Assembly: GCF_017352155.2 (NCBI RefSeq)
Contig: NZ_CP071462.1
Span: 1,426,001 to 1,490,000, forward strand
From: Haloterrigena alkaliphila
GTDB lineage: Archaea > Halobacteriota > Halobacteria > Halobacteriales > Natrialbaceae
Direction of reading: 5' to 3'
DNA: 64,000 bases
A program made the position numbers and the translations under genes. Positions 18,298-50,212 of this stretch are shown here, piece by piece. The notes beneath the pieces are model-generated. The model ran no database searches. It was given only the letters and a program-made list of their open reading frames with translations, and had not been told where the DNA came from. How positions within the stretch are numbered: position 1 is the first letter of the stretch; the number at the start of each line of letters is the position of its first letter.

Positions 18298-19029
18298 CTA
18301 CTCCGCTCGCGATGACCGTTTCGGCCGCTCCGACCGCTCCGCCTCGAGCGTCGCCTGCAGCGAGGGCGGCGCGACGTCCCAGCGGTCCGCGGTGACCCCG
18401 TCGACGCCGGCCTCGTGGAGCGCTCGAACGTGCTCGGGCGTCCGCGCGGCCTTCCAGGCGATGACGTCGAACCCGCGCTCGCGGGCGGCGGACACGACGT
18501 CGGTCTCGAGACAGAGGTCGTAGTGGGGGAACACGTGCGTACAGTCGAGGTCGGCGGCTCGAGAGAGGTTCGCGTCGGCTTCGTCGCCGAAGAGCAGGCC
18601 GTTGGGAACGTCGAGGTAGTCCGTCTCGATTTCGGCGAGCGCGTCCGGGAGAAACGACGAGACGCGGACGTCGGCGCCGGCCGTCATCGCCAACTGCAGC
18701 GTATCCGACGCGATCCCCCGTTCTTTCAGTTCGAGCTGGACGGTGACGTCGTCCGGGACGGCCCGCAGGACCGCCTCGAGGCGGGGAATCGATTCGGCCG
18801 ACTCGAGGACGGTCAGGTCGCGGAGGTCGGCCCACGGCGTCTCGTCGACCCGCCCCGACGCGTCGGTGACGCGCTCGAGGGTCTCGTCGTGAAACGCCAC
18901 CAGTTCGCCCGATCCGCACCGCCGGACGTCGACCTCGACCGCGGGGAGTCGACGGGCGGCGTCGCGGATCGCGAGGAGGGTATTCTCCGGACGCTGCTCT
19001 GCACAGCCACGATGGCCGATGATCTCCAT
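18298..19029 (-). CDS. glycerophosphodiester phosphodiesterase
   Basis: A GDPD-family TIM-barrel enzyme of 243 residues that hydrolyses glycerophosphodiesters to glycerol 3-phosphate and an alcohol. The signature is intact: IIGHRGCAEQRPENT at the N-terminus, EVDVRRCGSGELVAFHD with the metal-binding Glu/Asp and catalytic His, and later QLELKE. There is no signal peptide, so it acts in the cytoplasm. Downstream of the two transferase genes on the same strand, it may be part of a glycerophosphate-handling group. It converges with the UDG gene 66 bases away. Confidence 0.9.
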   Translation of the reverse strand: MEIIGHRGCAEQRPENTLLAIRDAARRLPAVEVDVRRCGSGELVAFHDETLERVTDASGRVDETPWADLRDLTVLESAESIPRLEAVLRAVPDDVTVQLELKERGIASDTLQLAMTAGADVRVSSFLPDALAEIETDYLDVPNGLLFGDEADANLSRAADLDCTHVFPHYDLCLETDVVSAARERGFDVIAWKAARTPEHVRALHEAGVDGVTADRWDVAPPSLQATLEAERSERPKRSSRAE

Positions 19030-19227
19030 CTACCGGGTTCCAACAGCCAGCGGCCATCAACATTGTGGTTTCGGCGTCTGACACCGGTCTCTCCTTCGAA
19101 CTGTCGCCGAACACCGAGTATCTCCGTGGCGGATAGGTGGGTAGTCCGAACGGTGCCGGTAGTCCAACGACCGTCGACCGTCGGTAGCGCGCGGTATCAC
19201 AGCGGACTGGATCCGCTCGGAACGGTA

Positions 19228-19908
19228 TCACGCGGACCGGATCCGCTCGGAGTCGAGCCACGCACGCGCCCGCTCGAGGTCGGCCGGTCGATTGACTTCC
19301 ACGTGTCGTTCGGCCGGGATCAACAGCGGTCGGGTCGGCGTCCGGGGGTAGATGCACGGATACCAGTCGTCGAGTCGCTCTCGCAGGACCTGCATCGCCG
19401 CCGTCCGGTGGTCGCGGCTCACGATCCCGAACCCGGCGTGCTGGTGGCCCTCGATGAGGCCGTAGGCCGACACGCGTCCCGTCTCGTCCCAGCGGATCGC
19501 CGTCTCCGCGCTCTGGATTCCCGGGATACATCCGACGAGGTTGAGGCGGCGGCTGAGGGCCTCGAACGCTTCCGTCAATCGCCCGACTTCCCGCTCGTCG
19601 ACGAGCACGTCGCCGTTGAGCACCAGCAGGTCGTCGTCGATGCGCTCGAGCGCGAGGAGCAGCGAGGCGGCGTTCTCGTAGCGGTCCCACCCCTCGAGGA
19701 CGATCGGATCGGCGGGATCGTACCGCTCGAGGACGGTCTCGTGGCGATAGCCCAACACGACGCTCGTGCCGTCGACGTGCGGCTCGAGCAGGGCGCGCTG
19801 TCGGTCGTACAGCGTCCGGCCGTCGAACTCGAGGAACGCCTTCGGGACGTCGTCGGTGTGCCGGCCCATGCGCCGGCCCTCGCCCGCCGCCAGAATCACG
19901 CTCTGCAT
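19228..19908 (-). CDS. sugar/alditol-phosphate nucleotidyltransferase
   Basis: A GT-A fold nucleotidyltransferase of 226 residues. The N-terminal nucleotide loop is VILAAGEGRRMG, followed by PKAFLEFDG, whose Lys contacts the phosphate. The metal-binding NGDVLVDE lies near residue 90 and ENAASLLLAL just before it. The ENAASLL stretch recalls the choline/alditol-phosphate cytidylyltransferase branch (LicC-like), so CTP may be the donor. The start overlaps the end of the transferase gene by 13 bases, a sign of translational coupling. The substrate is inferred from this neighbour. Confidence 0.82.
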   Translation of the reverse strand: MQSVILAAGEGRRMGRHTDDVPKAFLEFDGRTLYDRQRALLEPHVDGTSVVLGYRHETVLERYDPADPIVLEGWDRYENAASLLLALERIDDDLLVLNGDVLVDEREVGRLTEAFEALSRRLNLVGCIPGIQSAETAIRWDETGRVSAYGLIEGHQHAGFGIVSRDHRTAAMQVLRERLDDWYPCIYPRTPTRPLLIPAERHVEVNRPADLERARAWLDSERIRSA

Positions 19909-20882
19909 TTACACACCTCCCTGGCGGCGCGTTCGCCGGCCCGACCGTCCATCGGAATTTCGAGGGACTCGAGCCACGACTCGCGTCGGCGCGTCGCGGC
20001 CGCGGACTCGCCGTTCCGGTACAGGTCGTCGACGAGCGCGAGGTCGAGCGCGTCGGTCGTGGTGCCGATTTCGGGTACCTCGCGGTCCGGCGCGTCGATA
20101 TCGGTCAACTGAACGAGCGGGCGGCCGGTGTGGAGCCACTCGGTGATCGTCCCCGAGTAGTCCGAGACGAGGACGTCGGAGCGGCGCATGCTCTCGCCCG
20201 GCGTCGTAGTCGTATCGAAGACGACGTTCGGGAGGTCGGCGATCCGCTCCCGGCACTCGCGCGTGACGGGCAGGCCCGGCCCCTCGCGCCTGTCGGTGGG
20301 GTGGGGCCGAAAGAGGAGTTCGTACGTCGAGTCGGCGAAACACTCCACGACCGAGCGGGCGGTGTTCGCGTACGCGCCGCGGCCGACCATGTAATTGGTC
20401 GGCGCGTACAGCACCCGTCGCTCGCGGGGAGCGGGTGCGCCGACCAGCGCGTCGGCTTCCGGAATCCCGACGACGGCTACGGTTACGTCCGGGGGTGCGG
20501 CGGCGCGGTAGGCTCTCGCCCACCGCTCGCCTGGCGCGAGCGCGGCGGCGACGTGCTCGAGCATCGTCTCCGCGGTGACGTCGATCTCGCCGCGGCCGAT
20601 CGACGCGCCGTGGCGGAGGTGAACCAGCGGGTATTCCTCGTAGAAGGTGAACCGCTCGATGCCGAACCGGTGGTTGTAGACGACGACGGACGGGTCGATC
20701 GCCCGCACGTTCTCGTCGACCGCACCGGGGTCGTCCACCGGGAGTTCCTCGATGCGGTCGCTACAGCCGCGTGCGTCCGTCCGAACCGGGATGAACGCCG
20801 ACGTGACCTCCACGTGGCGGTCGATCGCTTCGAACGTCTTCCGCATGAACGGTCGCTCGATGGCGTACAGTACCTCGACCAT
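19896..20882 (-). CDS. CDP-glycerol glycerophosphotransferase-like protein
   Basis: A 328-residue protein of the TagB/TagF-like transferase family, which in bacteria moves glycerol phosphate (or ribitol phosphate) from a CDP-alditol to an acceptor in teichoic-acid synthesis. The signature is the donor-site stretch DVLVSDYSGTITEWLHTGRP, preceded by FRPHPTDRR, with the His and Asp/Ser positions typical of the family. No membrane anchor is present. It is coupled to the nucleotidyltransferase downstream and near a GDPD. Archaea lack classical teichoic acids, so the acceptor is open. Confidence 0.82.
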   Translation of the reverse strand: MVEVLYAIERPFMRKTFEAIDRHVEVTSAFIPVRTDARGCSDRIEELPVDDPGAVDENVRAIDPSVVVYNHRFGIERFTFYEEYPLVHLRHGASIGRGEIDVTAETMLEHVAAALAPGERWARAYRAAAPPDVTVAVVGIPEADALVGAPAPRERRVLYAPTNYMVGRGAYANTARSVVECFADSTYELLFRPHPTDRREGPGLPVTRECRERIADLPNVVFDTTTTPGESMRRSDVLVSDYSGTITEWLHTGRPLVQLTDIDAPDREVPEIGTTTDALDLALVDDLYRNGESAAATRRRESWLESLEIPMDGRAGERAAREVCKCRA

Positions 20883-29527: not shown

Positions 29528-30712
29528 TCAGAAGCCGAAGATCGGGACGAACCGGAACGTGATGTACGCGCCGACCGTCGAGATGAGCGGCACGACGTTT
29601 TGCATGAGGATGACGCGGGCCGTCGTCGAGGGATCGAAGAGATCCGACGCCTTCGGGATGTCTTCGGGTTCCTCCTCGCCGATGCCGGGCGACTGTTCGC
29701 CCTCCTGCTCGGCGGTGAGGGCGCCGACGGAGACGCGAGTCTCCTCGCCGCGGGCGGCGTCTGACAGCGTCGTCGTCCGGGTGGCCCGTCCCCAGCCTAA
29801 CCCGACGATGCTCATCGTCGCGATGACGACGAAACTCGCGGGAATGCCGATCGCGGAGAGGCCGACGACGATGGTCGAACTGATGACGGCGACGACGATC
29901 GCGGCCGTCAGCGGGAGGTTCGTGATGTCGTTGCCGAGCGTGTCCAGCGTCCGGCGGGCGATGGTGAAGCAGCCGACGGCGACCGCCGCCGAGCCGATCA
30001 GAATCAGCGGCACCATGTCGACGTCGCCGGTGCCGTAGATCGGCGCGATCGCGTTGGCGATGTTGCTCGTCCCCGAGGAAAAGCCCATCAGACAGCCGAT
30101 GCCGACGACGACGAACGCGCCGGTGATCTCCCGTCGATCGCCGTCGCCGCCGAACTGGAGCCGCGGGACGGTGCCGGACCGGTCGACGGATATCATCGGC
30201 TCGCCGTCCGTACTCCCCTCGATGGCGACCCACGCGTTGATCCGCGGGTAGAAGTAGCGGCCGACGACGCCGGCCACCCAGAAGCCGATGATCGGGGCGA
30301 CGATCCACCAGACGACGATCTCGCCTAACACCGACCAGTCGAGTTCCCCGGTCGCCAGGCCGAGCGCGGCGATGGCGCCGACGGCGGTCATCGACGTCGA
30401 CGCCGGGACGCCGGCGTAGTTGCCGACGAACAGCGCGCCCCCGATGAAGAAGAGGACGGCGACGTTCGACCGCATCGTGAAGATGGCGGTGTCGGTGACG
30501 AGTTCCTCGCCGAGCGTCGTGACGACCTGCGGGCCGATGGTGTAGGCCCCGATGAAGAAGAAAATCGACATCAGCCCGGCGGCCATCACCTTCGTAATCA
30601 CGTCGGCACCGACGGCGGGCCCGAACGCGGGCCCGGTCGTCGAGCCGCCGATGTTGTAGCCGACGAAGATCGCCGTGAGAATCCCGACGATAAGCAGCGG
30701 TTCCGCGTTCAC
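29528..30712 (-). CDS. pitA: Pit-type phosphate permease, copy 1
   Basis: A 394-residue polytopic permease of the inorganic phosphate transporter (Pit) family, which couples phosphate or metal-phosphate uptake to the ion gradient. The duplicated family signature is visible: YNIGGSTTGPAFGPAVGAD near the N-terminus and SSGTSNIANAIAPIYG in the second half. About ten helices flank a central soluble loop. It is closely related to copy 2 at 32061 (shared DAARGEE/DAIRGDV and ATRTTTLS-type stretches), so the pair probably arose by duplication. Confidence 0.92.
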   Translation of the reverse strand: MNAEPLLIVGILTAIFVGYNIGGSTTGPAFGPAVGADVITKVMAAGLMSIFFFIGAYTIGPQVVTTLGEELVTDTAIFTMRSNVAVLFFIGGALFVGNYAGVPASTSMTAVGAIAALGLATGELDWSVLGEIVVWWIVAPIIGFWVAGVVGRYFYPRINAWVAIEGSTDGEPMISVDRSGTVPRLQFGGDGDRREITGAFVVVGIGCLMGFSSGTSNIANAIAPIYGTGDVDMVPLILIGSAAVAVGCFTIARRTLDTLGNDITNLPLTAAIVVAVISSTIVVGLSAIGIPASFVVIATMSIVGLGWGRATRTTTLSDAARGEETRVSVGALTAEQEGEQSPGIGEEEPEDIPKASDLFDPSTTARVILMQNVVPLISTVGAYITFRFVPIFGF

Positions 30713-32060: not shown

Positions 32061-33224
32061 TTAGACGAACGGTACGGCGACGAAGAAGGCGTAGGCGAGG
32101 ATCGTCGACATCGACGGCCCGATGATCCACATCGAGACGTACTTCATGATCGCCCGCGGGTTGAACAGGTCGCCCGCGTTCAGGACTTCGTCGGACTCCG
32201 CTTCACCGATCTTGGTCACCGGGGCCTCCGGTTCCGCCTTCAGCGCCCCCATCGACATCTCCGCGTCGACGTCGCCGCGGATCGCATCTCGAGCCGTCAC
32301 GGGTCGGGTCGCCCGTCCCCAGCCGAGGCCGACGATGGTCATTACCGACCCCATCACGAGGCTGATCGGGATCCCCATCCAGGAGAGGATCGTCGTGATC
32401 GTCGAGGCGGTCGTCATGACGACCAGCGCCGCCAGCAGCGGGATGTCGCTGAGTTCGCTGCCGACCGACTCCATCGTCCGACGGGCGATGGTGAAGCCGC
32501 CGATGCCGATCGCGATCGTCGCGAGGACGATCGCGTTGTCGGCCCCGAGCGCGCCGCTGCTGACCAGCGGCGCGACGGCGTTGGGGACGTTGCTCGCACC
32601 GGCGCTGAAGGCCATGTAACAGCCGATGACGAGGACGAGGATCGTCCCGACGAACTCCTGGGTGGTCGTGTTCGGTCCGTACGCGGGTTTCGGGACCGAT
32701 CCGCCGCGGTCGAGAACCAGCAGCGGTCCCTCCGAGGACCGAATGTTGAACCGGCGGTTGAGTTCCGGGTAGACGTAGCGCCCGATCGTGGCACCGACCC
32801 AGAGGCCGATGATCGGGGTGACGACCCACCACGAGATGATCCAGCCGATCGTGTCGAAGTTGAGCGTGTTCGTCGCGAGCCCCAGTCCGGCGATGGCGCC
32901 GACGGTCGTCATCGACGTCGGCACCGGAACGCCGAAGACGTTCGCGATGAGGATGCCGAAGCCGATGAAAAAGAGCACGGCGACGCCCGCGGCGAGCGAG
33001 ATGTCGATCGCGATGATGTCGCCGGCGAGCGTGTCCATCACGTTCCGACCGACGGTCCAGCCGCCGAGGAAGACGAAGACGGTCATCAATCCGGCGGCGG
33101 TGGTCTTCCGGAGGAGTCCGGCTCCGACGGCGGGCCCCCACGCGATCCCGGTCGACGAGCCGCCGATGTTGAAGCCGACGAACAGCGACGCGACGATCCC
33201 GACCAACAACACGGTTTCGACCAT
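32061..33224 (-). CDS. pitA: Pit-type phosphate permease, copy 2
   Basis: A 387-residue paralogue of copy 1. The signatures are FNIGGSSTGIAWGPAVGAG and SAGASNVPNAVAPLVSSG. The frame is open 63 bases further upstream, but the ATG at 33222-33224 aligns with the start of copy 1 (both begin just before a first helix ending NIGGS-TG). It is followed by a Usp gene and divergent from hisA. Confidence 0.92.
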   Translation of the reverse strand: MVETVLLVGIVASLFVGFNIGGSSTGIAWGPAVGAGLLRKTTAAGLMTVFVFLGGWTVGRNVMDTLAGDIIAIDISLAAGVAVLFFIGFGILIANVFGVPVPTSMTTVGAIAGLGLATNTLNFDTIGWIISWWVVTPIIGLWVGATIGRYVYPELNRRFNIRSSEGPLLVLDRGGSVPKPAYGPNTTTQEFVGTILVLVIGCYMAFSAGASNVPNAVAPLVSSGALGADNAIVLATIAIGIGGFTIARRTMESVGSELSDIPLLAALVVMTTASTITTILSWMGIPISLVMGSVMTIVGLGWGRATRPVTARDAIRGDVDAEMSMGALKAEPEAPVTKIGEAESDEVLNAGDLFNPRAIMKYVSMWIIGPSMSTILAYAFFVAVPFV

Positions 33225-33402
33225 TGGGAGTGGATATCTGAGGGTTCCTGAAATAAGTACTGGGACAGCCGGATACGACATTCGCATGCGATTGCAGCCG
33301 GCGACGGTACCGACCCGGACACTCGCCGTCGGCTCCGGCGTCGTTCGACGAGCCGTCGCCTCGAGGCGACGCTCACGGTTCGGTCGCTCCCGAAGTCGGT
33401 GG

Positions 33403-49018: not shown

Positions 49019-50212
49019 ATGGTCGAGCTCGTGACGATCGCGACGTTTTTGGTGGCCGCCCTCGCCAGCCTCTTCATGGCCTGGGCGATCGGCGCCGGCT
49101 CGAGCGGCTCGACGCCGTTCGCGCCGGCGGTCGGCGCCAACGCGATCTCGGTGATGCGAGCGGGTTTTCTCGTCGGCATCCTCGGATTCGCCGGCGCCGT
49201 GTTGCAGGGGGCGAACGTCTCCGAGGCGGTCGGCGCCGACCTGATCGGCGGGGTGACGCTGTCGCCGATGGCGGCGACGATCGCGCTGGCGATCGCGGCC
49301 GGACTGGTCGCGATCGGCGTCTTCGCCGGCTACCCGATCGCGACCGCGTTCACGGTGACCGGCGCGGTCATCGGCGTCGGCCTCGGGATGGGCGGCGACC
49401 CCGCGTGGGCGAAGTACACCGAAATCGCCACGCTCTGGATCCTGACGCCGTTCGTCGGCGGCGGCATCGCGTACTCGATCGCCCGCGCGCTCCGCGCCGA
49501 ACTGATCGACGAGAAGTATCTCATCGTCGTTCTGGCGGCCTTCGTCGGCGTTCTCGTCGCCAACATCGAGTTCGCGATCCTCGGGTCGGGCGCGGGCGGC
49601 GGCGCGTCGATCGCCGAGGCCTCGAGCGGGTGGGTTCCCGGTTCCGCAGTCGTCGGCGTCGTCGCGATGACGACCCTGATCGCGGCCCTCTGGGCGGTCG
49701 TGGTCGGGCTCGATCTCCGGAGCGGCCTCGAGAGCGGCGAGCGCCACTTCCTGCTCGTGCTGGGCGGGCTGGTCGCGTTCTCGGCGGGCGGCAGTCAGGT
49801 CGGGCTGGCGGTCGGTCCGCTGCTCCCGCTGTCGGGCGACCTCGAGATTCCCCTGATGGCCCTGCTCGTCGGCGGCGGCTTCGGCCTCCTGCTGGGGTCG
49901 TGGACCGGCGCCCCGCGGATGATCAAGGCGATCTCGCAGGACTACTCATCGCTGGGGCCGCGGCGTTCGATCGCCGCGCTCATCCCCTCGTTCATGATCG
50001 CCCAGTCGGCCGTCCTCTTCGGGATCCCCGTCTCGTTCAACGAGATCATCGTCAGCGCGATCATCGGGAGCGGCTACGCCGCGGCCGGCGCCGGCGGCGG
50101 CGTCAGCGGCCGGAAGATGGCGTACACCGTCCTCGCGTGGATCGGTTCGCTCGCCGGCTCAATCGCCCTCTCGTACGTCGGCTTCACGGCGATCTCCCTC
50201 GTGCTGGGGTGA
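49019..50212 (+). CDS. pitA: Pit-type phosphate permease, copy 3
   Basis: A 397-residue polytopic permease of the Pit family with about ten helices. The first-half signature is AIGAGSSGSTPFAPAVGANAI and the second-half one FSAGGSQVGLAVGPLLPLSG. It is clearly more distant from copies 1 and 2 than they are from each other, and its second signature departs from the family pattern, so it may carry another oxyanion. Its stop codon abuts a 110-bp MITE-like element. Confidence 0.87.
   Translation: MVELVTIATFLVAALASLFMAWAIGAGSSGSTPFAPAVGANAISVMRAGFLVGILGFAGAVLQGANVSEAVGADLIGGVTLSPMAATIALAIAAGLVAIGVFAGYPIATAFTVTGAVIGVGLGMGGDPAWAKYTEIATLWILTPFVGGGIAYSIARALRAELIDEKYLIVVLAAFVGVLVANIEFAILGSGAGGGASIAEASSGWVPGSAVVGVVAMTTLIAALWAVVVGLDLRSGLESGERHFLLVLGGLVAFSAGGSQVGLAVGPLLPLSGDLEIPLMALLVGGGFGLLLGSWTGAPRMIKAISQDYSSLGPRRSIAALIPSFMIAQSAVLFGIPVSFNEIIVSAIIGSGYAAAGAGGGVSGRKMAYTVLAWIGSLAGSIALSYVGFTAISLVLG

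Follow-up and report, generated by a model that had tools for sequence, protein, structure and literature searches.

Related Systems and the Locus

The wall teichoic acid glycerol and ribitol phosphotransferases TagB, TagF and TarL are of the PF04464 type. Enzymes of that family are known to carry glycerol, ribitol and hexose phosphates, and they act on membrane or polymer acceptors. The canonical CDP-glycerol synthases, TagD and GCT, have a fold other than the LicC-like one. A CDP-glycerol synthase and a TagF-like transferase also occur together in Gram-negative capsule loci (Actinobacillus, Bibersteinia). A different type of nucleotidyltransferase, PF12804, is represented by LicC, PntC and CpgD. 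CpgD, itself LicC-like, acts as a CTP:phosphoglycerate cytidylyltransferase and has the motif Asn110-Gly111-Asp112 (PMC12275187, PMC13228409). In the Caulobacter ceramide diphosphoglycerate pathway (CpgA-D), such a LicC-like cytidylyltransferase is proposed to feed the transfer of a phospho-C3-acid to a membrane lipid.

The window analyzed here is a 64,000-nucleotide stretch of the Haloterrigena alkaliphila genome. It contains three genes on the minus strand, which we refer to as the trio. The first (19896..20882) encodes a predicted TagB/TagF-type CDP-alcohol:acceptor phosphotransferase of 328 aa (PF04464, GT-B fold), assigned by Pfam, AlphaFold fold search, hhalign and motif alignment. The second (19228..19908) encodes a LicC-like nucleotidyltransferase of the MobA superfamily, 226 aa, found by Pfam (PF12804) and by profile and fold searches. 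The third (18298..19029) encodes a predicted cytoplasmic glycerophosphodiester phosphodiesterase (GDPD, PF03009) of 243 aa, recognized by Pfam and its catalytic residues. The first-pass annotation had the coordinates and strand of all three right, as well as the exact 13-bp overlap (19896..19908, minus strand) in which the transferase stop and the nucleotidyltransferase start share bases. The overlap is kept in most carriers, with the exception of one genome (G387) having a gap of about 25 bp, and it suggests that the two genes may be translationally coupled. The trio is flanked by a uracil-DNA-glycosylase-family gene and a HIT-family gene, both in the opposite orientation. A near-invariant cysteine at the C-terminus of the transferase, C326, is encoded within the overlap; since the nucleotidyltransferase ATG is read there, the start codon, rather than function, may account for this conservation.

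The relationships of the trio to the described systems are partial. Like TagB, TagF and TarL, its transferase has the GT-B fold, the HG, RPHP and SDxS motifs, both key TagF histidines and a partner gene for the CDP-donor. Unlike them, it belongs to a short archaeal subfamily (EWLHTGRP, MDGRAGER) far from the Pfam core, it has no other teichoic genes recognized beside it, and its partner is LicC-like and not TagD-like, being PF12804 without a TIGR01518 match. The nucleotidyltransferase shares with LicC, PntC and CpgD the fold, GxGxR..PK, the N-x-x-S/T cytosine motif and the GD metal site, but it has C-terminal WYP and HxEINxPxD motifs and is partnered with a PF04464 enzyme, not LicD. The Caulobacter pathway differs from the trio in its bacterial sphingolipid acceptor, its lipid kinase CpgB and the lack of a GDPD in the published scheme. 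The Actinobacillus and Bibersteinia loci differ in that their GCT belongs to another kind of CTP:glycerol-phosphate cytidylyltransferase and in having a multidomain polymerase and a full capsule locus.

The Transferase

Against PF04464, the window transferase scores 21.0 bits, slightly below the Pfam cut-off of 22.1. All 21 orthologues scanned match the family, the best at 1.5e-11, and plasmid orthologues are named "CDP-glycerol glycerophosphotransferase family protein" in RefSeq. A sequence search against the PDB gave irrelevant matches only. With the AlphaFold model (pLDDT 88.6), the top PDB fold matches are TagF (3l7m/k/j/i; E 2.6e-10, TM about 0.7). A sequence bridge is provided by a bacterial (Candidatus Fermentibacteraceae) protein, itself a full PF04464 match at 82.8 bits, to which the transferase aligns by hhalign at E 1.7e-13 over 260 columns. 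The conserved residues of the transferase are H91, H194 and S240-D241-x-S243, and of these H91, H194, D241 and S243 are invariant in the alignment with bona fide PF04464 proteins. A haloarchaeal PF04464 protein (from locus L095) that aligns with TagF at E 6e-30 served as a bridge for residue mapping, by which H91 corresponds to TagF H444 and H194 to TagF H584. H444 is named in the titles of the TagF PDB entries, and we take H584 to be a functional residue from the TagF structure work. By fold, motifs and sequence bridge, the protein is of the TagB/TagF type, as had been proposed in the first-pass annotation, and a divergent PF04464 member.

UDP-GlcNAc 2-epimerases are among the next fold matches. 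That identity was rejected, given that TagF scores higher and all scanned orthologues match PF04464. PADLOC returned no match, and a phage-defense reading was dropped.

The Nucleotidyltransferase

The nucleotidyltransferase scores 58 bits against PF12804, and its best profile match is LicC (1jyk) at 3.5e-11. A fold search with its model (pLDDT 90.1) finds mainly CTP enzymes, with PntC, LicC and the Archaeoglobus inositol-1-phosphate cytidylyltransferase (IPCT) among the best. It carries GxGxR..PK, the cytosine motif N79-x-x-S82, N98-G-D100 and E204. The stretch ENAASLL, earlier read as LicC-like, spans residues 78–84 and contains the N-x-x-S motif, and the LicC match bears that reading out. 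R13, K23, N79 and S82 are invariant among 20 orthologues. The NxxS aligns with LicC, IPCT and PntC, and it corresponds by motif to Asn90 and Thr93 of CpgD, two residues in contact with the ribose ring and with N3 of the cytosine (PMC13228409). On these signatures, the enzyme is probably CTP-using and LicC-like.

The residue preceding the GD metal site bears on the cargo. It is Asn (N98) in 20 of 20 orthologues, whereas the aligned residue of PntC is Glu104; the equivalent position in LicC is Asp105, near the substrate amine (PMC6697681). The amine-binding acidic residue of the LicC/PntC type is absent from the nucleotidyltransferase, and having N98 in its place speaks for a cargo with hydroxyl groups and not for choline or ethanolamine, without favoring either glycerol phosphate or phosphoglycerate. 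By the NGD motif, N98 corresponds to CpgD Asn110, a member of the glycerate pocket Asn110/Ser170/Met147/Lys161, the two enzymes being compared by motif alone. A search for canonical TagD (TIGR01518) in the genome found none, the best score being 43.5 bits vs. a cut-off of 165.4, which leaves the nucleotidyltransferase as the obvious maker of the donor.

The GDPD

The GDPD matches PF03009 at 100 bits with the full family signature. H6, E32, D34, H47 and E100 are invariant, and the closest solved relative is 4oec (1.8e-18). Since the protein opens directly with MEIIGHRG and has no signal peptide, the earlier assignment to the cytoplasm is sustained. Its position next to the pair fits a glycerophosphodiester product.

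Conservation, Co-Inheritance and Mobility

The transferase is present in 31 of 392 Halobacteria genomes. At a threshold of E < 1e-100 (next group at 1e-63), an orthologue of the nucleotidyltransferase adjoins it in 30 of those 31 and occurs in 0 of the other 361. At E < 1e-114 (next group at 1e-82), a GDPD orthologue occurs in 27 of the 31 and again in 0 of 361. Fisher tests of co-occurrence with the transferase give 4e-44 for the nucleotidyltransferase and 8e-38 for the GDPD, figures that ignore kinship and overstate independence because the genomes are related. A phylum-wide search, drawing mostly non-carriers, found the transferase subfamily only in four Halobacteria, all among the known carriers.

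Adding 12 named genomes outside those 31 gives 43 carriers, distributed over Natrialbaceae, Haloarculaceae, Haladaptatus, Halorussus and Halobaculum. The first-pass annotation had staked its reading on the three genes being conserved neighbors, and so they are: the pair of transferase and nucleotidyltransferase is contiguous in 42 of the 43, and the whole trio in 38, in the order transferase–nucleotidyltransferase–GDPD on one strand. The exceptions are G384, with the transferase alone; G026, G122 and G286, with the pair but no GDPD orthologue; and G311, in which the pair is plasmid-borne and the GDPD lies apart from it. The three pair carriers imply that the GDPD is dispensable to the module. 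Pairwise distances of the transferase and nucleotidyltransferase correlate at r 0.94, and those of each with the GDPD at 0.88 and 0.91. With dN/dS of 0.18–0.25 for all three genes, and with order and strand kept in 38 of 43 carriers, the trio is not a chance arrangement; it is a real co-inherited unit.

The surroundings are wholly different among Natrialbaceae, Haloarcula, Haladaptatus, Halorussus and Halobaculum, and the trio or pair is what stays constant. Plasmids carry the trio in Haladaptatus and the pair in Halobaculum. Two Haloarcula-type carriers (G300 and locus L058) have a version 77–78% identical to that of the window, whereas the other carriers of the G300 family are at 53–60%, a contrast that fits transfer as a unit.

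Two of the exceptional genomes show further details. In G384 (L038 9152-10213), the lone TagB-like gene is extended at its C-terminus, and the nucleotidyltransferase and GDPD are missing, possibly through decay or a change of partner. The chromosome of G311 (L099 9443-9841) holds the C-terminal part of a TagB-like gene at 56% identity, a decayed or displaced copy, in addition to the intact pair on the plasmid.

Independent Pairings of Related Genes

Six haloarchaeal genomes without the trio transferase have a sister nucleotidyltransferase, 32–38% identical and with the N-x-x-S/T motif retained. In every case, a bona fide, TagF/TarL-like PF04464 protein (31–236 bits) is encoded no more than 2 kb away (loci L092–L097, e.g., L092 8016-9972, L094 7646-9848 and L096 9558-11649). 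The haloarchaeal clade of this nucleotidyltransferase is the partner of PF04464 in two separate settings. The sister loci lie mostly amid glycosyltransferase-like, sulfatase-like and flippase-like genes, labels mostly read from the sequences. This placement, mostly within apparent surface-glycan clusters, suggests that some haloarchaea may make real phosphoalditol-bearing glycans. In the Candidatus Fermentibacteraceae locus (L071 1732-5804), three different PF04464 genes come immediately after one for a LicC-like PF12804 nucleotidyltransferase.

Proposed Function

The families, folds, catalytic motifs, CTP signature and co-inheritance described above were computed. From them we infer the cargo, the acceptor, the addition of a single unit and the role of the GDPD, and we put the probability at roughly 0.6 that the trio works as a small phosphodiester module dependent on a CDP-donor: CDP-glycerol is made, its glycerophosphate is transferred singly to a membrane-bound acceptor, and such diesters are cut by the GDPD. 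The LicC-like enzyme would convert CTP and a small hydroxylated phosphate, most likely sn-glycerol-1- or 3-phosphate, to a CDP-product (CDP-glycerol) and pyrophosphate. At the inner face of the membrane, the TagB-like enzyme with its GT-B fold would then form a single phosphodiester by moving glycerophosphate, with release of CMP, onto a hydroxyl group of a membrane-bound acceptor, which could be an archaeal lipid, a glycolipid or a lipid-linked glycan. Hydrolysis of glycerophosphodiesters of this kind by the cytoplasmic GDPD would serve turnover or salvage.

Of the possible cargoes, glycerol phosphate is the likeliest, because of the GDPD neighbor and the precedent of PF04464. Against the module as proposed stand the different fold of TagD and GCT, the three pair carriers without a GDPD orthologue and the lack of any recognized gene for acceptor synthesis linked to the trio in the loci examined. 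In addition, glycerol-1-phosphate gave no product with CpgD (PMC12275187), and hexose phosphates are also among the possible cargoes of TagF-like domains (PMC8262930).

Phosphoglycerate is a live rival as cargo, even if an improbable one. The nucleotidyltransferase would make CDP-glycerate as CpgD does, and the transferase would attach phosphoglycerate, an anionic group, to the headgroup of a lipid. Asn90/Thr93 and Asn110-Gly111-Asp112 of CpgD do match N79/S82 and N98-G-D100 (PMC12275187, PMC13228409), but neither NGD nor NxxS is specific for glycerate. A control search found a PF04464 signal in Caulobacter as well; on the other side, the neighboring GDPD suits glycerol better than glycerate, and sphingolipid synthesis is not known from haloarchaea. 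Slightly less probable again is some other CDP-activated phosphate, such as that of ribitol, erythritol, inositol or choline/ethanolamine. The LicC-like clan does span choline, aminoethylphosphonate, inositol and glutamine phosphates, and the Archaeoglobus IPCT is a close fold match, but the amine-binding acid is replaced by the invariant N98, a GDPD would not be expected beside an inositol or ribitol enzyme, and the PF04464 precedent is for glycerol, ribitol and hexose phosphates.

We consider it very unlikely that the product is a soluble, osmolyte-like phosphodiester, made and degraded in the cytoplasm (cf. Archaeoglobus diglycerol phosphate). The hosts are extreme halophiles, the trio stands isolated from envelope genes and the GDPD is cytoplasmic; however, PF04464 enzymes have membrane or polymer acceptors, the known archaeal diester-osmolyte pathways rely on membrane CDP-alcohol phosphotransferases, and the main osmolyte of haloarchaea is KCl. 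A true teichoic-acid-like polymer is likewise very unlikely despite the TagF-type fold, since there is a single short transferase and no such polymer was found in the literature searched.

No linkage-unit, polymerase, export or glycosyltransferase genes were recognized beside the trio in neighborhoods of 18–19.5 kb from 20 genomes and 7–11 kb at the named loci, where genes were called by a composition-based caller and most neighbors were not searched singly. Having one transferase and none of these genes recognized nearby fits a single decoration better than a polymer. The trio is not a teichoic-acid operon, and the earlier wording "teichoic-acid-like" was overstated.

The proposed glycerophosphate module suggests a phosphate decoration of lipids or surface sugars not yet described in archaea; the literature searched gave no report of such a CDP-glycerol module in haloarchaea. 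A more specific version, which we rate as less likely than not, is that a mobile haloarchaeal operon uses a teichoic-acid-type CDP-donor transferase to equip archaeal membrane lipids with a glycerophosphate or phosphoglycerate headgroup, giving a new class of polar lipid whose synthesis and breakdown are specified by one operon. If the module is as proposed, some haloarchaea attach small alcohols through phosphodiester links to their lipids or surface glycans, and the CDP-donor chemistry of bacterial cell walls is at work in haloarchaea with its genes moving as a cassette. With three named genes and culturable hosts, lipidomics and 31P NMR would offer a direct way to find the product. Unidentified lipids of Natrialbales have been reported by mass spectrometry (PMC10704169), and we offer only as a suggestion that the trio could explain some of them.

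Other Neighboring Genes

In one group of carriers, some of them without the GDPD, an endonuclease/exonuclease/phosphatase (EEP)-family gene adjoins the pair (L039 10656-11827, L043 10355-11618, L040 8210-9088, L046 7893-9011 and L098 1024-2263 are the EEP-family loci). It is usually accompanied by a gene of 93–95 aa without a known family, and in G311 both are near the unlinked GDPD. The EEP-family phosphatase was considered as a fourth member and rejected, the family being broad (128 of 392 genomes) and beside the pair in some lineages only. Elsewhere in the window, there are three PHO4-family (PiT-type) phosphate transporter genes within at most 21 kb (29528-30712, 32061-33281 and 49019-50212).
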